Origin: Bacteroidota bacterium | GTDB lineage: Bacteria > Bacteroidota > Bacteroidia > 2-12-FULL-35-15 | Assembly: GCA_947469885.1 (NCBI GenBank) | Contig: CANIQT010000003.1 | Location: forward strand, 1 to 64,000 | Direction: 5' to 3' | DNA: 64,000 nt | In this document: positions 9,034 to 46,638 of the stretch, one piece after another | How positions within the stretch are numbered: position 1 is the first letter of the stretch | Layout of the letters: the number at the start of each line of letters is the position of its first letter | Notes under the pieces: generated by a model | What the model saw: the letters and a program-made list of their open reading frames with translations, nothing else | Told to the model about the DNA's origin: nothing | Database searches by the model: none | Translations under genes and position numbers: made by a program

Positions 9034-11433
9034 TCAATTAAGAATAATCTTCCTATTCACTTCATTAGTTGGTGAGCCTGCCGAGCCCACTATCCTCACA
9101 AAATAAATTCCTTTTGCATAACCACTCATATCAATTATTTGTTGTCGGTTGTTGGTTGTTAGTTGTTGGATAACATTTCCAAGTACATCTGTTATTTTAA
9201 TGAAGTGCTGGGCTGCTGAGCCTGTTGAAGTATGCTCTTCACTAAAAGTAATTGTTGTTTGAGATGTGAAGGGGTTGGGGGAGATGGTAATGTTAGAATT
9301 ATTATCTTGTTCATTTACTCCAACAGTTACATTCACCATTAATGGCTGAGGATTGAACACCACAGGTAAACCTGCTGCATCATTAGCCATATAATTAGAG
9401 ATGTTTAAATTTATTGATGTTGCAGTTGTTAAAGTTGTTTTAATCTGAAATTTAAAATCAGCTATTTTGCCGTATCCATTTGCGTTTGTTTGATTGATGC
9501 GTGTTTCAGCACCATAAGCAGTTGCTGCAAGTGCATCTATTTTTGCAATTTTAATAGCATCAATACTTGGAGTACCTAACCAACTGGAAGGGTAGGAGAT
9601 GTTTTCTGTTCCTGACTGAACCAACGATGCAGGATAATTTATATTAAAAGCAACACCATATAAATTAGTAACAGGAGTTACGGAGCTCCCTAACCACAAC
9701 TCTGCATCCACCCAATCTCCGGCATTGTAGGTGTTGTTGGTTGTTACAAAATAAATATCAGGCGAGTTTATTTTTTCATCGTTGGGATGAGAAACGATGG
9801 CATGAGCTGAACTAAAATTAAGATTGATTGCAAGTGTGTCATTATTATCTATTGTCCCATCACCATCACAATCTGCATGTTTTATATCTGTTCCGTTCGG
9901 TTCATTTGTTCCCCAATTAACAGAGGTTTCAGCCTGCCATATATTACTTACTATACTTCTTAATGTTCCTGTTTGCCCATAGAATAAACCAATAGGCAAC
10001 AAATCATTATTATCTACATTGTTGTTATTATCTGCATCTCCAGGCCAAACTTCATTCGTAGGAGATAATTTACAAACAAAAATATCGTAGCCTCCATTTG
10101 AAGTTAAAGTAAAACTTCCAGTTCCAGAGCCAACTGTGGAAACAGTTGTATCTATTATTCCAGTTGCGAACACATTTCCATACCCATCCAATGCAATTGA
10201 ATGTCCTTGATTAAGACCATGCACACTTATTTGATTTCTCCAGATTAACACACCTGAAGTATCGTACTTTGAAATTGACGCAGCTCTGCCAATTCCAATA
10301 CTCACTCCGCCTGTTGTATAAATTTTCCCTTCATTATCAATATCAATTTGAGGATATTCTTCATTTTCGTATTTATACCAAAGCATATTGCCAGAAGTAG
10401 TAAACTTACATAGATAAGAACTACCGTCAGTATACATATTACCAAATGGGTCTAATTTTAATGAAGCAAAATTCCAATTAGTGTTACCAGGAAGATACGC
10501 TTGCGCCCACACAAAATTACCATTGGCATCTAATTTTGATAAATAATTGATATCATCATAACCACTCAAAGTATCAAGACTTAAAAGATAAGTACCTAAA
10601 CCAGGATCCATATCTATAAATGTAGTTGTCATAGAATTCCCCGTAAAAAAACCTTTTGTATATACATTACCACTGCCATCCACTTGAATGGCTTGCCCTT
10701 GAAGATAGCCGCCATTAAGAGAATCTATTGCAACAAATTGTTTTGCCCAAACAAAATCGCCATTTTGATTAAGCTTTGAAACAAAACTATTATTAAGTTG
10801 CCCAAATCCTGTACAATTAAAATTATAAGAAGTAGATAATGAAGGGTCAAAGTCAACAATTTCATAAAACCATCCGGTTGTGTATATGTTATTTGTTGAA
10901 TCTATAGTGATACTATTTGGAAAAGCCCAGCCATCAAAACATTTAGCGAAAACAAAATTACCATTTGAATCTAATTTTAAGATAAAGCCACCGACTCCCG
11001 TTTGGTAGCTACCTAAATAAAATGTTCCGGGTCCCGGATCAAAATCAACTGAATCGGTGCCTTGAAAAAATCCAGTAACATAAACATTTTGAGATGCATC
11101 AGTTACAATACCGGTAGCTTCTATCAAATCATTAATACCATTTCCGGTAATAGATTTTGCCCATACTAAATTGCCATTACTATCAAGTTTTTGAATATAT
11201 GCCCCGTAAATAGTTGGACTACTTGTAGTGAAATTTAACGTTGCAGGTCCCGGATCAAAGTCAACAGTACCAAGAAAAAACCCAGTTGTAATAACATTTC
11301 CGCCCGCATCTGTTGCAATGGAAATGCCATAATCGTTACTTGTTCCTCCCATTTGCCTTGCCCATTGAAACGATTGTCCATTTGCATTACTAATTATGAA
11401 TGCAAAAACTGATAGTAAAATTATTTTTTTCAT
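9034..11433 (-). CDS. SBBP-repeat secreted protein with dockerin-like and cohesin-like regions and T9SS type A sorting domain
   Basis: Repeated DPGPGT...KLDSNGNFVWAK units; GDADNNNNVDNNDLLPIG...DCDGDGTIDNNDTL; C-terminal ISPNPFTSQTTITF...GIYFVRI. Confidence 0.8.
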   Translation of the reverse strand: MKKIILLSVFAFIISNANGQSFQWARQMGGTSNDYGISIATDAGGNVITTGFFLGTVDFDPGPATLNFTTSSPTIYGAYIQKLDSNGNLVWAKSITGNGINDLIEATGIVTDASQNVYVTGFFQGTDSVDFDPGPGTFYLGSYQTGVGGFILKLDSNGNFVFAKCFDGWAFPNSITIDSTNNIYTTGWFYEIVDFDPSLSTSYNFNCTGFGQLNNSFVSKLNQNGDFVWAKQFVAIDSLNGGYLQGQAIQVDGSGNVYTKGFFTGNSMTTTFIDMDPGLGTYLLSLDTLSGYDDINYLSKLDANGNFVWAQAYLPGNTNWNFASLKLDPFGNMYTDGSSYLCKFTTSGNMLWYKYENEEYPQIDIDNEGKIYTTGGVSIGIGRAASISKYDTSGVLIWRNQISVHGLNQGHSIALDGYGNVFATGIIDTTVSTVGSGTGSFTLTSNGGYDIFVCKLSPTNEVWPGDADNNNNVDNNDLLPIGLFYGQTGTLRSIVSNIWQAETSVNWGTNEPNGTDIKHADCDGDGTIDNNDTLAINLNFSSAHAIVSHPNDEKINSPDIYFVTTNNTYNAGDWVDAELWLGSSVTPVTNLYGVAFNINYPASLVQSGTENISYPSSWLGTPSIDAIKIAKIDALAATAYGAETRINQTNANGYGKIADFKFQIKTTLTTATSINLNISNYMANDAAGLPVVFNPQPLMVNVTVGVNEQDNNSNITISPNPFTSQTTITFSEEHTSTGSAAQHFIKITDVLGNVIQQLTTNNRQQIIDMSGYAKGIYFVRIVGSAGSPTNEVNRKIILN

Positions 11434-11527: not shown

Positions 11528-11562
11528 TAAAGGTTCCACCTTTTTAAAAGGTGGAACCTTTA
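11528..11562. repeat. Palindrome, 17-bp arms (TAAAGGTTCCACCTTTT-T-AAAAGGTGGAACCTTTA)
   Basis: Perfect inverted repeat read directly; also at 43529-43563. Confidence 0.9.
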
Positions 11563-11732
11563 TGAACCCAAACTTGTTTTCCAACTTTGTCTTCAGTAAA
11601 AGGAAGTTCAAATGCTGGGCTGTCTTCGGGCAGTTGTAAATGGTAATCATCTTCTGTAGGTAATGTATCAGTAAAATAAATTTTTATACTGATAGCTTCC
11701 ACATCTTTTGGTTTGTTTATTCTAAAATTCAC
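11544..11732 (-). pseudogene. Truncated paralog of the 11757..12425 family (C-terminal domain), ends inside the palindrome
   Basis: TEDDYHLQLPEDSPAFELPFTEDKVGKQVWV aligns with the DDYRVQQQEGRTEFELPQTAGNVGKKLWV segment of the neighbouring ORF; last codons KGSTF* are the palindrome. Confidence 0.6.
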
Positions 11733-11756: not shown

Positions 11757-12425
11757 TTACACAATAATAATAAAGCACGGTTCGCTGTCAGGTCCTGCTT
11801 CGCCTGTAGGACTTAAATAAAAGCAAATTACCCAAAGTTTTTTTCCAACATTTCCGGCAGTTTGCGGAAGTTCAAATTCTGTTCTGCCTTCTTGTTGTTG
11901 AACTCTGTAGTCGTCCAATTCAGGTGGTGCTGTTACTGTGGCTTCGGTATAACAAATTTTTACACCTACTGCACCCACTGTTGGTGGTTTTGCACTTTTG
12001 GCAGGACGATTAGGGTCGGCTGCAAAAAACACAGGTAATAAATGAGTATTACGAATACACGAAACTACCGGAGCAAAATTAACTGCCGGAACACGGCTTT
12101 TTGTAGTTTTTGGTTTAGGAATATCAAGATTGGCATAATCAACAGTGGTTAATTCTATTGAAGGATTTGATTTAATCTGCAATTGCACTCCGTCCATTAT
12201 ACGTTTGTCTTCAGCATAGGTCGTATTCATATTTCCAATTGTTATTGTATTGTGAGTATTGGGGTTGGTGTAGTCATCAATCACCGGTCCCCAATCGGTC
12301 CAGTTGGTTGCCAGCCCGTCTTTTTGGTCTTCGGGAATACCAAGGTCAACAAAGTTAATTACTATGTACGCCACAAATGCTTTGAACCGATAATTAAACT
12401 GTAATATTTTATTTGATAGAATCAT
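11757..12425 (-). CDS. Uncharacterised ~220-aa protein family, paralog 1 (no signal peptide)
   Basis: Shares VNFAPVVSCI..T....FFAADPNRP..K..P and C-terminal YLSPTGEAGPDSEP with 25596..26252 and 43828..44493. Confidence 0.8.
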   Translation of the reverse strand: MILSNKILQFNYRFKAFVAYIVINFVDLGIPEDQKDGLATNWTDWGPVIDDYTNPNTHNTITIGNMNTTYAEDKRIMDGVQLQIKSNPSIELTTVDYANLDIPKPKTTKSRVPAVNFAPVVSCIRNTHLLPVFFAADPNRPAKSAKPPTVGAVGVKICYTEATVTAPPELDDYRVQQQEGRTEFELPQTAGNVGKKLWVICFYLSPTGEAGPDSEPCFIIIV

Positions 12426-12601: not shown

Positions 12602-12841
12602 CCTTAATCATTCAATAGTTAAGCTAAATGATTGAATGTTTAAGCTAAGCGATTGAATGATTAAGCTAAGCGATCAAATAGTTAAGGTAAATCATTGAAT
12701 GTTTTGCCTTAACTATTCAACCATTAAGCTAAATGATTGAATGTTTTACCTTAAACATTCAATCATTTACTTTAAACATTGAATGATTTGGTTTAACTAT
12801 TCAATGATTTACCTTAAACATTGAATAGTTAAGCTAAATGA
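12602..12841. repeat. Array of eleven 21-bp degenerate units plus a partial unit (e.g. GCTAAATGATTGAATGTTTAA and its reverse-complement form CCTTAAACATTCAATCATTTA)
   Basis: Units parsed by hand at 12602, 12623, 12644, ... 12812; every full unit is 21 bp. Confidence 0.9.
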
Positions 12842-12991
12842 AACCAAAACGCCACCTTTTTACTTATTTGCCTGTAATACAAAGAACTTTCTTTTAGACA
12901 ACAAAGTAAAGTAATTGTTTTTTTGAAAAATCAGCAAACAAAAACATTCGTCCCATATAACTTATTTAATGGGACAATTATTTTTAGTTCA

Positions 12992-13321: not shown

Positions 13322-13388
13322 TGTGTGAGTGACTGTTTGGGTTGATGAACGAACGGTTTGGGGTGATAAACGAAAAATGAGGAGATGG
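13322..13388. promoter_or_regulatory. 67-bp conserved element, copy 1 (putative LytTR-type regulatory site)
   Basis: One mismatch to 45767..45833; on the minus strand CGTTTATCA-N12-CGTTCATCA direct repeats. Confidence 0.65.
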
Positions 13389-13604
13389 TTTTTTTTGATT
13401 TTTCGGGAAAAATTGGTCAAGGATGAATACAAGATTTTATCATACAAAGAAAAAAATAATGACTATGAAATTTCGAAGTAAGTCCATTAGCTAATCCTTC
13501 CTTTTTTTATCTTCATATTTAAACAATCAAATGTTAATACTTCCTACTCTATTATAGATTTTCAACCAATTAATAAATTACTTTAGTGTCGTTTTAAATA
13601 AAAA

Positions 13605-25595: not shown

Positions 25596-26252
25596 TCAAT
25601 ACAATTCCACCATTATCGGTTTGCTTTCCCTACCTGCTTCGCCCGTAGGGCTGATGTAATACACTATTATATATAGTATCATTTTTAATTTATCTGCTGG
25701 ATACGAAAGTTCGAAAATAGATTTCTTTTCTTGAAGTTGTGTTTTGTAGTCGTCAGATGCAGGAGCCTCACCGCCTTGTTTCACAAAGGCAATTTTAATC
25801 CCAATAAAAGCAGCTCCATGGGGCTTTTTCTTTTTATGAGGATGCTTTGGGTCGAAAGCAAAAAATTTAACCATTCGCTCCGTTTGAAGAATACATGCCA
25901 AAACGGGTGCAAAATTGGTTACCGGAATTTTCCCGATGCTTTTTGTGTTCAGATTTATTTGGATATATTCCTTATCATTACCATCTAACTTTAGTGTGGT
26001 ATCCGATTTTAAACGGGTTCGCAATCCTGCCAGAAATTCGAAACATTTATCATATTCCCTGCTGATATTCGAACGAATTTGCTCGCGAGGAGATATGTAT
26101 TTATTAAATTCTTCCTCCCACTTTTCCCAAAGCTCTTCCAGCAGTTCAATGAACTTGTAAGGAAGCTTCAGTCTTTCTGCTTCTTCAATTAAATATGGAA
26201 CAAGAATCATAAACCGGATGTGAAATTCGAGATACTTTGCTGATAAAATCAT
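25596..26252 (-). CDS. Uncharacterised ~220-aa protein family, paralog 3
   Basis: VTNFAPVLACI..TERMVKFFAFDPKHPHKKKKP and YYISPTGEAGRESKP shared with the other two paralogs. Confidence 0.8.
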   Translation of the reverse strand: MILSAKYLEFHIRFMILVPYLIEEAERLKLPYKFIELLEELWEKWEEEFNKYISPREQIRSNISREYDKCFEFLAGLRTRLKSDTTLKLDGNDKEYIQINLNTKSIGKIPVTNFAPVLACILQTERMVKFFAFDPKHPHKKKKPHGAAFIGIKIAFVKQGGEAPASDDYKTQLQEKKSIFELSYPADKLKMILYIIVYYISPTGEAGRESKPIMVELY

Positions 26253-33102: not shown

Positions 33103-33296
33103 CTACTTCGCTTTCTTCTCTTCTTTTCTCTCTCCTTTCTTCTCGCTTTTTTCTCCTTTCTTTTCGTTTTTCTCCTCTCTCTTTTCCGATTTTTTTTCTG
33201 TTTTCAGCGGCTCCTGTTTTTCTCAGGAGTTTGTTTTGCGAAAATTACAGTTGACATCAATAATGCTGCTCCAACAATTAAACTTACTTTTTTCAT
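33103..33296 (-). pseudogene. Small Lys/Glu-rich exported protein, interrupted by single-base frameshift
   Basis: MKKVSLIVGAALLMSTVIFAKQTPEKNRSR* as sequenced; one extra A in the AAAAA tract joins it to KQEPLKTEKKSEKREEKNEKKGEKSEKKGERKEEKKAK*. Terminator hairpin follows at 33064-33095. Confidence 0.55.
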
Positions 33297-41092: not shown

Positions 41093-43435
41093 TTAATTAA
41101 GTACAATCTTTCTATTCACCACATTTTTGTTTTTGTCAGTTATTCTCACAAAATAAATTCCTTTTGCAACATCACTCATATCAAGGGTTAGTTGTTTGTT
41201 ATTAGTTGTTAGTTGTTGCATAACATTTCCCAGTACATCCGTTATTTTTATGATGTGTTGGGCTGCTGCGGTAGGTGAGCTTGTCGAACCTGTCGAAGTA
41301 TGCTCTTCACCAAAAGTAATTGTTGTTTGGGAAGTGAAGGGGTTGGGGGAGATGGTAATGTTAGAGTTATTATTTTGTTCACTAATTCCAGCATCTGTTA
41401 CTGTGTAACATGCAGAAGTGTCATTACAACTTGCGCCAAATGGTGCAACAATAACAGCATAGCTACCGGGAATTGAAGGAGTGAAAATCTGACTGTTGCC
41501 TCCTGGAATAAATGCATAATTGTTATTGCAATCAACCCAAGTAAAGTATGCCTGATAGGGATAATTCGCAATTAGACTGCCACCAGTGGGATGTACTCCA
41601 ACAGTATATAAAAAAAGATTTACGTTAAAATGAACAACACTATCACAACCATTCACATTACTTAATATTTGTGTGTAAACTCCACTTGTATTATATATTT
41701 GATTGTTTATGTTAATGCTATTACATCCTTCGGCATTTGTATAGGTATGTGTTACATTTATTATCAGTTGAAGTGTTACGACACTATCACATCCTGAAAA
41801 ATTCTGATATACCTCATAATAAGTTCCTGAAGTGGTATAAGCCCCACCCCCACTATGGTATGCGAGGCAACCAGAATAAGAAATTGTTGTGTCAGAAGCA
41901 GTAAGTGTTAAATCAATCGTGATAATACTGTCACATCCTGTGGCATTTCGCAAATATTGATGATAAGTTCCCGATGAATAATAAGTTTGATTATTCAGCG
42001 AATAAACGTGACAACTATTAATTACAATGGTGTGATAGGAAGGAACACAAGTTTTCAATTTCTGAAGGAATGCATAATTTCCTCCTCCTGATAAATTAAA
42101 TACAGCATTGGGAGCAGGGTCAAAATCCATTTGTGTTCCAAAAAATCCGGTAGAATATAAATTCCCTCCATTGTCAACTGCTAAAGAATAGCCCGTTCCA
42201 TTTCCATTTTGACTGGCAAACATCCCTTTTGCCGTAACAAAATTTCCTGTCGTATCTATTTTTTCAATAAATATATTTCCACAGAGAGAGCAAGAATAAG
42301 TGGGGGTAATAGTATAATTACTTCCACCAGGGTCAAAATTTAACGTGTCTTGGAAGTAACCTATTAAACATAGATTATCCTGATTATCTTTTGTCATATA
42401 ATATGGAGTATGATCAACTAGTTTTTTCACCCACACAAAATTTCCATTTAAGTCTAACTTTTGAACAAAACCACCACCCCATGTCAATATAGACGCTCCG
42501 GGACCCGGGTCAAAATCAACTGAATTAATGTAATTACCTGAAGTGTAAATAAAATTATTATCAACAACTATAGATGACCCCTTAATACTATTGAGAAAAT
42601 CTCCCTGCATATTTATTGCCCATTGAAAATTTCCATTAGAATCTAATTTCTGTACAAAGGCACTTGCTGCACTATTTGTTTGTATTGTTCCAAGCAGATA
42701 TACTGAAGGTCCGGGGTCTAAATCGGCAGTTGTAGAAAACATCCCTGTTGTATAAACATTCCCGTTGTGGTCAATATCTATGCCCATTCCCACGTCACCA
42801 CCTATACTTCCGAACCCCTTAGCCCATACAAAATTGCCAGCGGAATCTAATTTTTGAATATAGATGTCCGCTTCTCCAGCACAAACATAGGTACTCACAC
42901 TTGTTAAATTAAAAACTCCCGGACCAGGGTCAAAATCAGCGGTTAGATTATAAGTACCAATAGAAACAACATTTCCGATTGAATCAACTGCCAATGAAGA
43001 GGAAGTGTACCAAGGATAATAAAAATCACCTGCAACTGATTTTGCCCAAATAAAATTACCGAGGGAATTTAATTTTAAGATGAACACTCCTGTTCCGCTA
43101 ACTATTTCAGTTCCGGTACCAGGGTCCAAATCGGCTACTCCGTTATAAACTCCCTGGATATAGATATTATCGAAACCGTCTGATTTAATACATAATACTT
43201 TAGCATTATAAATTCCTTTCGACCAAATAGAAGTTCCAGTAGAATTAAATTTTTCAATTTTAAGCCATGCTCCCCATTCGCCAGCACAATAGACATTATT
43301 ATCACTATCAGTTATTAATGAATGACCGGCAGCATGGGGTGCGCTAGGAATTAAAGCCCAATCAAATGAATTGTATTGAGCATGAGAACCCACTGCAATT
43401 AATGTGAAGACCATTATAACAATTACTTTTTTCAT
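41093..43435 (-). CDS. SBBP-repeat secreted protein with T9SS type A sorting domain
   Basis: Repeated DPGPGT..KLDSNGNFVWAKG units; NNSNITISPNPFTSQTTITFGEEHTSTGS C-terminus nearly identical to 9034..11433. Confidence 0.82.
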   Translation of the reverse strand: MKKVIVIMVFTLIAVGSHAQYNSFDWALIPSAPHAAGHSLITDSDNNVYCAGEWGAWLKIEKFNSTGTSIWSKGIYNAKVLCIKSDGFDNIYIQGVYNGVADLDPGTGTEIVSGTGVFILKLNSLGNFIWAKSVAGDFYYPWYTSSSLAVDSIGNVVSIGTYNLTADFDPGPGVFNLTSVSTYVCAGEADIYIQKLDSAGNFVWAKGFGSIGGDVGMGIDIDHNGNVYTTGMFSTTADLDPGPSVYLLGTIQTNSAASAFVQKLDSNGNFQWAINMQGDFLNSIKGSSIVVDNNFIYTSGNYINSVDFDPGPGASILTWGGGFVQKLDLNGNFVWVKKLVDHTPYYMTKDNQDNLCLIGYFQDTLNFDPGGSNYTITPTYSCSLCGNIFIEKIDTTGNFVTAKGMFASQNGNGTGYSLAVDNGGNLYSTGFFGTQMDFDPAPNAVFNLSGGGNYAFLQKLKTCVPSYHTIVINSCHVYSLNNQTYYSSGTYHQYLRNATGCDSIITIDLTLTASDTTISYSGCLAYHSGGGAYTTSGTYYEVYQNFSGCDSVVTLQLIINVTHTYTNAEGCNSININNQIYNTSGVYTQILSNVNGCDSVVHFNVNLFLYTVGVHPTGGSLIANYPYQAYFTWVDCNNNYAFIPGGNSQIFTPSIPGSYAVIVAPFGASCNDTSACYTVTDAGISEQNNNSNITISPNPFTSQTTITFGEEHTSTGSTSSPTAAAQHIIKITDVLGNVMQQLTTNNKQLTLDMSDVAKGIYFVRITDKNKNVVNRKIVLN

Positions 43436-43446
43436 CTCATTAAATT

Positions 43447-43666
43447 TTATTTCTCTGTAAAATTAATCTATTATTTCCCAAAAACAAACAATCCCGCCTT
43501 ATTTAAAAAGCAGGATTGGTTTCGTAATTAAAGGTTCCACCTTTTTAAAAGGTGGAACCTTTATGAACCCAAACCTGTTTTCCAACTTTATCTGTTGTGT
43601 GCTGAAGTTCAAATGCTGGGCTGGCTTCGGGCAGTTGTAAATGGTAATCATCTTCTGTAGGTACTG
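43447..43666. repeat. ~220-bp segmental duplication, copy 2
   Basis: See 11446..11665. Confidence 0.85.
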
Positions 43667-43835
43667 TTTCGGAGCAGATTATTTTGATACCGATACGGAC
43701 CACATCCCTTGGTTTTGTTCGTTTCATCATTAATATGCCTGGTTCATTCTTCATGGTTTTAAAAGCTGGATTGGTTTTAGCGAAATGAAAGGTACTACCT
43801 TTTAAAAAGGTAGTACCTTTATCAGCATTAAACAA
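43545..43835 (-). pseudogene. Truncated paralog of the ~220-aa family, containing one palindrome and ending in another
   Basis: RIGIKIICSETVPTEDDYHLQLPEASPAFELQHTTDKVGKQVWVHKGSTF; N-terminus KGTTFLKGSTF is encoded by the palindrome at 43789-43821. Confidence 0.55.
43789..43821. repeat. Palindrome variant (AAAGGTACTACCTTTT..AAAAGGTAGTACCTTT)
   Basis: Same architecture as 11528-11562 with compensatory stem changes. Confidence 0.85.
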
Positions 43836-44493
43836 TAATAATTGAAAAAGGCTCGCTATCAGGTCCCGCTTCGTGGGTTGGACTCAGGTAGTAACAAATT
43901 ACCCAAAGCCGTTTGCCTTCTTTATCACCCGTTGAAAGGATTTCGAAAATAGTTGAACCTTCAGGCTCTTGTCTCCGGTAATCATCAATGGCAGGAGGAG
44001 TGGCAGCTGCATCGGTATATACTATTTTATATCCTATTGATTCCACATCTTTTGGTTTTCCTTTTTTGCCAATCCTGTTTGGGTCCATTGCAAAAATTTC
44101 GGTGTCCAAATGAGTGTTTTTAATCAATGAAATAATAGGCGCAAAGTCCTTTGCAGGAACATTGGTTCTTTGTTTTTTCGGACGAGGAATATACAAATTA
44201 GCATAATCTACTCCCGATAACTCAATGGTTGTGTTCGAACTGATTTGTAATTTCAACGCTTCGGTCATGGCATGGTCAGTTATGTAAAGTGCATTGATGT
44301 CGCCAATACTAATTTCGTTGTGCGTATCGGGTGCGGTGTAATCGTCAAAAACGATAACCCATGCATCCCATTGGTCAACAATCGAATCTTTTTGAGCCAA
44401 AGGAATTCCCAAATCCAGATAATTAATTTCGACATAAGACTTTATAGACTTAAATTCGAAATGATACTTTAATATTTTAAATGATAATTCCAT
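43828..44493 (-). CDS. Uncharacterised ~220-aa protein family, paralog 2
   Basis: YVEINYLDLGIPLAQKDSIVDQWDAW...FDDYTAPDTHNEISIGDINALY...YYLSPTHEAGPDSEPFSIIIV aligns end to end with 11757..12425. Confidence 0.82.
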   Translation of the reverse strand: MELSFKILKYHFEFKSIKSYVEINYLDLGIPLAQKDSIVDQWDAWVIVFDDYTAPDTHNEISIGDINALYITDHAMTEALKLQISSNTTIELSGVDYANLYIPRPKKQRTNVPAKDFAPIISLIKNTHLDTEIFAMDPNRIGKKGKPKDVESIGYKIVYTDAAATPPAIDDYRRQEPEGSTIFEILSTGDKEGKRLWVICYYLSPTHEAGPDSEPFSIIIV

Positions 44494-44720
44494 ACTTTTA
44501 TTATTTTTTTGTTTATACTATTTTTTTGTTTTTGTACTTTTTAATTTAAAAATTCCCTCCAGGGGAGATAAATAATTTTTTTTGCTTTTAGATTGCTTTT
44601 CTTTCTTTTTTGGGTATTGGTCATTAGCCTTTGTCTATTTATATTATGTGTTTTTAGTAATTCATCTATATTATTATCCTTTTCACCTTGTTTTGGGCAT
44701 TTCCACTTACTTTAGCATCT

Positions 44721-44972
44721 CATCGAAGTGTTGCGTAAAATCATCGGAGTGTTTTGCAAAATCATTGGAGTGTTTTTTGAAATCACTGGAGTGTTTTTAG
44801 AAAATTTTGAATAATTTTTAAAAATCACCGGAGTAATGTGCAAAATCATCGAAGTGTTTTTAAAAATCACTGTAGTGTTTTTAGAAAATTTCGAATAATT
44901 TTTAAAAACCACCGGAGTATTGTTTAAAATCATTGGAGTGTTTTTTGAAATCACTGGAGTTGTTTTGCGTCT
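44721..44972. repeat. Array of eleven 21-bp units plus a partial unit (e.g. CATCGGAGTGTTTTGCAAAAT), with an 84-bp (4-unit) higher-order period
   Basis: Units parsed by hand at 44721, 44742, ... 44931, all 21 bp; units 4-6 match units 8-10. Confidence 0.92.
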
Positions 44973-45124
44973 TACTCCGGTTTGTTGCTAAAACAGCCAC
45001 TTTTGTTTTTTTGATGCGTTATTTCAATGAACTTTCTTTCGCGCACCAAAGGTAAATGGAGTAAATAAGGTTGCAAGGTGTGAATTCTGTGAGCGTGTAA
45101 AATATTCTGTAAACGTGTATCGAA

Positions 45125-45703
45125 TCAAGAGCGCAACTTTTTTATACGCTCATACCGTTTTTCAAATTCCTCTTTTTTACGATTAGCAACCATCAATTCC
45201 CTTTCATCAATCATTATAGCTATACCCGTTCTGATGTTATCAATATAACTATTAACAAATTTCATTCTAATTATATTACTCCGATGTATTTGTAAAAAAT
45301 CATTAGCCGGCAATACTTTTGCAAACCAGTTCAACTTATTATAAGAAACAAATTGTTTTTTGTTTAACAGGGTGGTAACTGTAAAGTTTCCTTCTTTTAT
45401 AATATGTACCATTTGATTAAAAAACACTTTAACAGGTTTGCCTGCTGCTTCCATATAAATAAAATCAACCCCTTCCACCGCATTTTCTTCTTCCAGTTTT
45501 TTATCAATAAATAAATTTGAAATCACCACTCCTAATTCTTTGGCAACTATTTTTTCAATCTCGTTTGATAACGCACCTTTGGGAAGTGTAATAACCTCTT
45601 TGTCTTTGCAAATTTCAACTTCGCAATCAACAATTTTTGTTTCTTCATCACTTTCGGTAACGAAAGAAAAAGCAAGAGCTATTTTAAAAAGTACTGAATC
45701 CAT
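45125..45703 (-). CDS. LytTR-domain DNA-binding protein without receiver domain
   Basis: FVSYNKLNWFAKVLPANDFLQIHRSNIIRMKFVNSYID...IMIDERELMVANRKKEEFEKRY LytTR signature. Confidence 0.82.
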   Translation of the reverse strand: MDSVLFKIALAFSFVTESDEETKIVDCEVEICKDKEVITLPKGALSNEIEKIVAKELGVVISNLFIDKKLEEENAVEGVDFIYMEAAGKPVKVFFNQMVHIIKEGNFTVTTLLNKKQFVSYNKLNWFAKVLPANDFLQIHRSNIIRMKFVNSYIDNIRTGIAIMIDERELMVANRKKEEFEKRYERIKKLRS

Positions 45704-45766
45704 TTAATTTCCATTTTAAATGCTACTGCAAAGTAAAGCACGATTTAAGAAATATGGTGTGGTGAA

Positions 45767-45833
45767 TGTGTGAGTGACTGTTTGGGATGATGAACGAACG
45801 GTTTGGGGTGATAAACGAAAAATGAGGAGATGG
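45767..45833. promoter_or_regulatory. 67-bp conserved element, copy 2 (putative LytTR-type regulatory site)
   Basis: 66/67 identical to 13322..13388 by eye; 64 bp upstream of the LytTR start. Confidence 0.65.
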
Positions 45834-45857
45834 CTTTCGGGGTGGTAAATGAAAAAG

Positions 45858-45892
45858 TAATGTCGAATAATGATGTTCATTATTCGACATTA
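45858..45892. terminator. Perfect 16-bp inverted repeat, 3-nt loop (TAATGTCGAATAATGA-TGT-TCATTATTCGACATTA); terminator or operator
   Basis: Read directly; T-rich on both sides. Confidence 0.6.
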
Positions 45893-45957
45893 TTTTTAGA
45901 AGATGAAGCGTTAAAACTCCCCGTCAACATTCCTAATTCCTAATTCCTAATTCCTAA

Positions 45958-46638
45958 TTATTCTTCGGTATATTCCTGTCGCTTTTTGCCTCTGTAAGAG
46001 CCCGAAAAATATAAGATGCCACGGAATCCAATTATGGTTTGTTCCTGGTTCCAGTCGGCAAACAAGGAAGCACCAATGCCCACATCGTAAGCAATTTTTT
46101 TAACAATTTCTGCCTCTGCATACAATCCAAATTCGTTGTAAGGCCTGCTGTAATTCGATAGCGTATCGTTTATCTGCACTTTGGCCCAACCGGTAGAAAA
46201 CGAAGGACCTATAAAGGTTGCAAAGTTTATATCCTTGTCTTCAAATCGCCACCCGTAACCCAAATGCAATTGATAATTGCTGTAAGAGTAAAACGTTTCT
46301 CCGGTAATTTCCAAACCGGTTTGAAAATAATTTCGTTTGATATGAAAGTTTAAATCGGCACCACCGGCAAAGCCCAAGCTTCTTTCGTAGGTAAGGTTTT
46401 GCTGCACTCCCCCACCAATGGTAAACCACTTGCTATAGTATCTGAATCGTTTGTTATCCACCACAAACTCGCTATCCAGCGGAGTTAAACGTTTGTGATT
46501 TTTGGTGTATTCTGCGTTTTTATTTTTATCCGCCTTGTAGTGAACACCGTTGATAACAGTGTCTTTTTGCGAATACACGTTGGTTGAAATAAGAATACTT
46601 AAAACAACAATACTTAAAAAGGAGAATTGATTTTTCAA
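45958..46638 (-). CDS. Hypothetical outer-membrane beta-barrel-like protein
   Basis: Signal peptide plus alternating aromatic/polar beta-strand pattern. Confidence 0.5.
   Translation of the reverse strand: MKNQFSFLSIVVLSILISTNVYSQKDTVINGVHYKADKNKNAEYTKNHKRLTPLDSEFVVDNKRFRYYSKWFTIGGGVQQNLTYERSLGFAGGADLNFHIKRNYFQTGLEITGETFYSYSNYQLHLGYGWRFEDKDINFATFIGPSFSTGWAKVQINDTLSNYSRPYNEFGLYAEAEIVKKIAYDVGIGASLFADWNQEQTIIGFRGILYFSGSYRGKKRQEYTEE

Follow-up and report, generated by a model that had tools for sequence, protein, structure and literature searches.

The tandem array considered here (array 2) belongs, as judged from sequence comparison, to a genome-wide class of intergenic arrays in which the unit length is fixed at 21 bp and the unit sequence is free to drift. 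It lies in a 64,000-nucleotide stretch of contig CANIQT010000003.1 (the window), from a Bacteroidota genome of 4.07 Mb. The presence of the array and the lock on its period are firmly established.

Array 2, its neighbors and the downstream proteins

In line with the first-pass annotation of the window, array 2 was found to consist of about eleven 21-bp units, both by direct reading of the sequence and by TRF (period 21 and 10.9 copies at 44737–44966). Matching at lag 21 was 0.70 over 105 bp, compared to a maximum of 0.50 in 20 shuffles for which all periods from 9 to 69 were searched. The 84-bp super-period was also recovered, as a second TRF call (period 84, 2.7 copies, 86% matches) and as a matching of 0.89 at lag 84. 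It is real but approximate: units 4–6 and 8–10, which had been given as equal, differ by eye at about 6 of 63 positions.

As had been reported, array 2 lies upstream of a gene whose paralog carries array 1 at the equivalent place (Table 1), and the two arrays have a common period and unrelated units. No unit match above background was found between them, the pair being missing from the list of shared units. At array 2, the earlier annotation had missed the LytTR gene on its far side, which is read in the same direction and in whose product no receiver domain was found; array 1 has no adjacent LytTR gene.

Table 1. Features of the array 2 and array 1 loci (window coordinates)
Feature	Position	Strand	Remarks
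Array 2	44720..44972	−	About 11 units of 21 bp plus 84-bp super-period; sense (minus) units, e.g., AGTGATTTTTAAAAACACTTC
221-aa gene downstream of array 2	43828..44493	−	N-terminal helical bundle and C-terminal FN3-like domain (predicted)
192-aa protein gene, C-terminal LytTR DNA-binding domain	45125..45703	−	Directly upstream of array 2; Pfam LytTR E=1.6e-9
TACCTTTG, putative Bacteroidetes-type −7 box (TAnnTTTG)	45047..45054	−	Sequence read, enrichment, kept in ortholog
TTG 19 bp upstream of −7 box TACCTTTG	45074–45076	−	
GTTCATTGAA, boxA-like antitermination element	45023..45032	−	Between promoter and array 2; motif also in congeners' rRNA leaders
5′ flank arm TTTAGCAAC of array 2	44984..44992	−	Inverted repeat with 3′ arm
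3′ flank arm GATGCTAAA of array 2	44711..44719	−	
GGCTAATGACCAATACCCAAA	44609..44629	−	Block between array 2 and gene, conserved in closest subfamily
Array 1	12614..12838	−	Period as in array 2; unit unrelated and present in both orientations
Paralogous 222-aa gene downstream of array 1	11757..12425	−	Product 54% identical to 221-aa protein
GTTCTTTGT, boxA-like sequence upstream of array 1	12879..12887	−	Weaker match; sequence read

Further features recur at the two loci. Short ORFs just 3′ of both array-linked genes (43545–43835 and 11544–11732) are partial copies of the C-terminal domain of the family, and type IX-secreted-related proteins (SBBP, Por_Secre_tail) are encoded after both genes on the same strand (41093–43435 and 9034–11433), with similar neighbors at many other loci. 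An element that contains two 21-bp units (GTTTGGGRTGATRAACGAACG) is dispersed in the genome, with 7 matches, one of which is separated by about 30 bp from a further LytTR match (C3:105602). In the window it was detected at 45760–45870, upstream of the LytTR gene, and at 13322–13392, on the far side of array 1.

The 221-aa protein and the other FN3-type proteins gave no Pfam, NCBIfam or PADLOC match, and the remaining array-linked proteins showed at most a sub-threshold fn3 match. An AlphaFold2 model of the 221-aa protein, built from 4 sequences (mean pLDDT 84, pTM 0.48), predicts a helical bundle at the N-terminus and a beta domain at the C-terminus, the best PDB matches of the latter being FN3 domains; how the two parts are placed relative to each other is uncertain in this model. 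By sequence, solved structures returned only a weak match to LicT (E=0.006), and a tblastn search for a phage origin gave no match in phage records. There are 11 family matches in this genome. A single-sequence search located the family in 9 of 59 relatives, all of them congeners, and when 297 genomes of the class were searched with a profile, 18 of them, from 8 genera, were found to have members.

Period and unit sequence in the protein family and across the genome

The association between the array and the downstream family was analyzed with 71 family members, 65 of which had enough upstream DNA; 3 of these are fragments, leaving 62 near-full-length members. An array of period 21, 42 or 63 (two were read as 41 or 62) was present within 700 bp upstream of 58 of the 62. 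This compares with a background of about 8% for all genes (of the 1044 genes called in the DNA sampled, 81 are start-facing neighbors of an array). Arrays of 21 bp, some of them nearly perfect, also accompany distant homologs outside the genus, in other families of the class. The expectation that unit length would stay at 21 across the family as the consensus varied was thus confirmed, and the family, its distant homologs and the genome-wide census described below lend strong support to the suggestion that it is the period that counts. No array was found within 700 bp of the other four members, namely L025, L080, L093 and L023, although a later census placed one about 840 bp upstream of L025. 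L023 (window 25608–26249) is the third family member in the window and has no 21-bp array upstream.

Similarity between units dropped with protein divergence and tracked the protein only weakly, where stronger tracking had first been expected. Unrelated units were observed despite 82–84% protein identity in two pairs (L030/L037 and L109/L112), and other pairs at about 80% had similar units. In the closest pair of orthologs (74% identical), the promoter, the boxA-like element and the blocks before and after the array are conserved and the array itself has diverged. These comparisons indicate that the units change in sequence more quickly than the protein does.

With respect to column-permuted controls, units tended to be dyad-symmetric (mean z 2.3; 38 of 57 with p<0.05), and this held equally whether or not the array was linked to an FN3-type gene. 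No consistent k-mer was common to the units beyond A/T-rich words, with a mild enrichment of AAGG/CCTT, and no 10.5-bp sub-period was detected within the arrays.

Two other origins of the period were discarded. Phased A-tracts or curved DNA were rejected on a negative AA/TT autocorrelation at 10–11 bp. A translated heptad repeat (7 codons being 21 bp) was rejected for lack of a strand bias, as fully open frames are present on the sense strand in 53 of 89 arrays and on the antisense strand in 54; in array 1, each of the three sense frames contains stops.

The census covered 1.256 Mb, which corresponds to 31% of the genome, and yielded 106 tandem arrays. About 70 of them have period 21 or a multiple of it, 16 consist of 7-bp repeats and few have any other period. 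The 21-bp arrays occur about once per 18 kb in all orientations, and by extrapolation the genome probably contains 200 or more 21-bp arrays. FN3-type genes (of several families) lie downstream of only about a quarter of these; the others are intergenic in every orientation, many of them between convergent genes. The scope of the first-pass annotation was therefore too narrow, as the majority of the arrays in this genome are not upstream of the family. Repeats of 7 bp are the second commonest tandem repeat in the genome and are represented in the window at 45929–45959, in addition to the 16 census sites. Arrays of period 22, 44 or 66 were seen rarely in this genome (L009, about 894–1030; C12 and C7 of G000), one of them in a LytTR gene locus with a 252-aa frame.

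Array positions mapped by orthologous neighbors were kept between genomes G000 and G027 in both cases, beside pyrG and beside a 183-aa gene; the units, compared by eye, are related beside pyrG and unrelated beside the 183-aa gene. Seven of eight genomes with the family have 21-bp arrays, the exception being G028, a genome with few members of which 40 kb were covered, and none were found in 480 kb from nine congeners without a family match. For the co-occurrence of arrays and family, Fisher's exact test by hand gives p ~4e-4, a value that overstates independence, the genomes being related.

Leader anatomy, LytTR genes and possible mechanisms

On the sense strand, the typical order is promoter, boxA-like element, flank arm, array, flank arm and gene, preceded at 20 of 96 loci by a receiver-less LytTR gene. 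At 16 of 51 loci (0.23 expected), the boxA sequence GTTCNTTGA was present distal to the array; no locus had it between array and gene. TAnnTTTG was found in 26 of these 51 distal flanks against 8.2 expected. Among distant homologs, boxA occurred in 6 of 32 (0.14 expected), with no excess of TAnnTTTG. An equivalent pair, TACTTTTG followed by GTTCTTTGA or GTTCATTGA, is carried by the rRNA leaders of congeners, which were used because the 16S gene of the window's own genome was not found. Inverted repeats scoring at least 12 flank the array at 17% of 84 loci tested, compared to 0.3% of mismatched pairs. This anatomy is well supported by sequence statistics and, given the distal promoter and boxA and the flanking inverted repeats, the array is probably transcribed as part of the leader, the promoter being assigned by motif only.

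The LytTR genes directly upstream at the 20 loci are always on the same strand; with 17 LytTR genes in a genome of 4.07 Mb, fewer than one such neighbor would be expected. For the LytTR protein of the window, full-length relatives were found only in genomes with the family. Other LytTR genes of this genome, in L007, L010, L012, L013, L016 and L017, also adjoin 21-bp arrays, with other small proteins encoded downstream. The earlier idea that each array co-evolves with its own factor was only partly sustained. In its favor are these neighbors and the recurrence elsewhere, between unrelated flanks, of the unit of three LytTR-adjacent arrays (#49 with the LytTR-adjacent #70, #60 with L007, and #67 with #35). 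Against it, the unit is private and an adjacent factor missing at most arrays, and genes with 82% identical products may have unrelated units. Among non-LytTR arrays, the strongest sharing confined to the array, between #19 and #45, has no known factor.

A length of 21 bp corresponds to two turns of B-DNA. Starting from what is observed, that is, the array, its period lock, its anatomy, the LytTR neighbor and the co-occurrence with the protein family, we tentatively propose, as a reading that may well prove wrong, that the arrays are helix-phased sites bound cooperatively by LytTR-type proteins, which would regulate the downstream gene. Array 2 would then make up most of the untranslated leader between the promoter and boxA-like element and the gene for the helical-plus-FN3 protein, and would present binding sites arranged like a ladder, two turns apart and all facing the same side of the DNA. 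Receiver-less LytTR-type proteins, one of them encoded just upstream of array 2, would occupy these sites cooperatively; occupancy would set the level of transcription reaching the gene, and copy number and unit drift could tune or re-assign it.

Known LytTR operators consist of 9-bp direct repeats mostly 12 bp apart, with a minority at 11 or 13 bp, and this 9-12-9 layout therefore gives a 21-bp step (PMC6193735); in the arrays described here, 21 is dominant and 22 rare. Those operators are similar also in that recognition sequences diverge between regulators and the regulator is encoded beside its site, a neighbor that only some of the arrays have. They differ in being a pair of repeats upstream of the promoter (PMC6193735), in contrast with about 11 units in a leader downstream of it. 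Several further observations argue against LytTR binding. The units have no common LytTR consensus and are dyad-symmetric, which LytTR direct repeats need not be, and a LytTR gene is adjacent at only about one fifth of the loci. The genome has 17 such genes, too few for each to account for a private unit at the 200 or more arrays extrapolated. Promoter control is hard to see for the many arrays that lie between convergent genes.

Alternatively, the array may act as RNA, a possibility we regard as unlikely. In this case, a boxA-protected leader would carry hairpin-like units of about 21 nt within an outer stem and act in cis on translation or in trans, the repeat RNA perhaps being bound by the downstream protein, by analogy with type III toxin-antitoxin loci. 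The order of elements is compatible with such a role, boxA likewise preceding natural and synthetic CRISPR arrays (PMC7862264), as are the flanking inverted repeats; moreover, array RNA folds better than column-permuted controls (mean z −2.3). However, the antisense strand folds equally well (z −2.1) and stem changes to G-U (178) and to A-C (150) are about equal, so no RNA strand signature is seen. Many arrays lie outside leaders, and a unit length that stays at 21 instead of varying loosely speaks for the pitch of DNA. In addition, the only match at the Rfam gathering threshold in the 64-kb window is a tRNA at 338–409, with none for the arrays.

It appears more doubtful still that the arrays are largely a by-product of a DNA-processing activity, confined to family-bearing genomes, that duplicates DNA in steps of 21 bp. 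Such an origin would account for units that are local and private at most sites, for arrays that occur wherever the family does and not in congeners without it, and for those between convergent genes, and dyad-symmetric units would suit a dimeric enzyme. It would not account for the contrast between 58 of 62 members of one family and about 8% of all genes, for the conservation of promoter, boxA and flank arms, or for the persistence of array positions between species beside pyrG and the 183-aa gene, and no such enzyme has been identified.

Just as improbable, in our view, is a structural role in which the arrays serve as landing sites for a chromosome protein (the helical-plus-FN3 proteins or an unseen partner) that reads helical phase instead of sequence, with regulation secondary: the fixed period and free sequence, the spacing of about 18 kb in all orientations and the so far strict co-occurrence with the family would suit it, but there is no A-tract phasing at 10–11 bp, PDB searches with the FN3-type model returned no DNA-binding match, and the LytTR neighbor and boxA are left unexplained.

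Comparison with known systems

Several known kinds of repeat resemble these arrays in part. Plasmid iterons and partition centromeres are tandem sites at whole helical turns, often next to the gene for their binding protein. They are alike in this helical spacing, whereas the arrays here are chromosomal, number 200 or more per genome by extrapolation, have a different unit at nearly every site and come with no replication or partition gene. Type III toxin-antitoxin loci (ToxIN) comprise a promoter, a non-coding stretch of tandem repeats of about 34–45 and a gene for a protein of about 200 aa, an endoribonuclease toxin. A tandem-repeat non-coding stretch between a promoter (assigned by motif) and the gene for a protein of similar size is likewise found here, but the repeats are of 21 bp, the protein has no PADLOC match and is predicted to be helical plus FN3-like, not a ToxN-like endoribonuclease, and there is no strand-specific RNA signature. 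No terminator between array and gene was seen by eye in the gaps inspected.

REP/BIME elements of enterobacteria are dyad-symmetric and occur as hundreds of intergenic arrays, including some at 3′ ends or between convergent genes, and their unit sequence is common within a genome. The arrays described here are alike in number, location and symmetry, and differ in that only the period is common to them. Finally, a boxA-like element just upstream of a transcribed array (transcription being predicted here) is also a feature of CRISPR leaders (PMC7862264), from which these arrays differ in having degenerate units and no unique spacers between constant repeats.

Since the arrays fail the defining tests of the known kinds compared, they were assigned to none of them. 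No described system fitting them was found, and searches of the open-access literature for 21-bp arrays in this phylum returned nothing. With moderate confidence, we consider that they represent a chromosomal system without a described counterpart, whose information resides in the length of the repeat and not in its sequence. Each genome would hold hundreds of 21-bp arrays, helix-phased and dyad-symmetric, that come and go with an uncharacterized helical-plus-FN3 superfamily and often with a receiver-less LytTR gene. Regulatory DNA is mostly recognized by its sequence; here, in several species and families, the step stays at exactly 21 bp although the sequences are unrelated. Should it be the step that is read, information in the DNA would be carried by helical phase. 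The strict presence or absence of arrays among congeners offers a route to the responsible protein through comparative genomics.

A polypyrimidine stretch with a 21-bp period is also present in the window between two other genes (33103–33221). In G000, some arrays lie within longer repeats of about 700, 660 and 300 bp, in which the flanks have been copied too (C1:256617 and C3:183050; C4:160565 and C5:21098; and C1:49896, C1:278608 and C7:140927, respectively).
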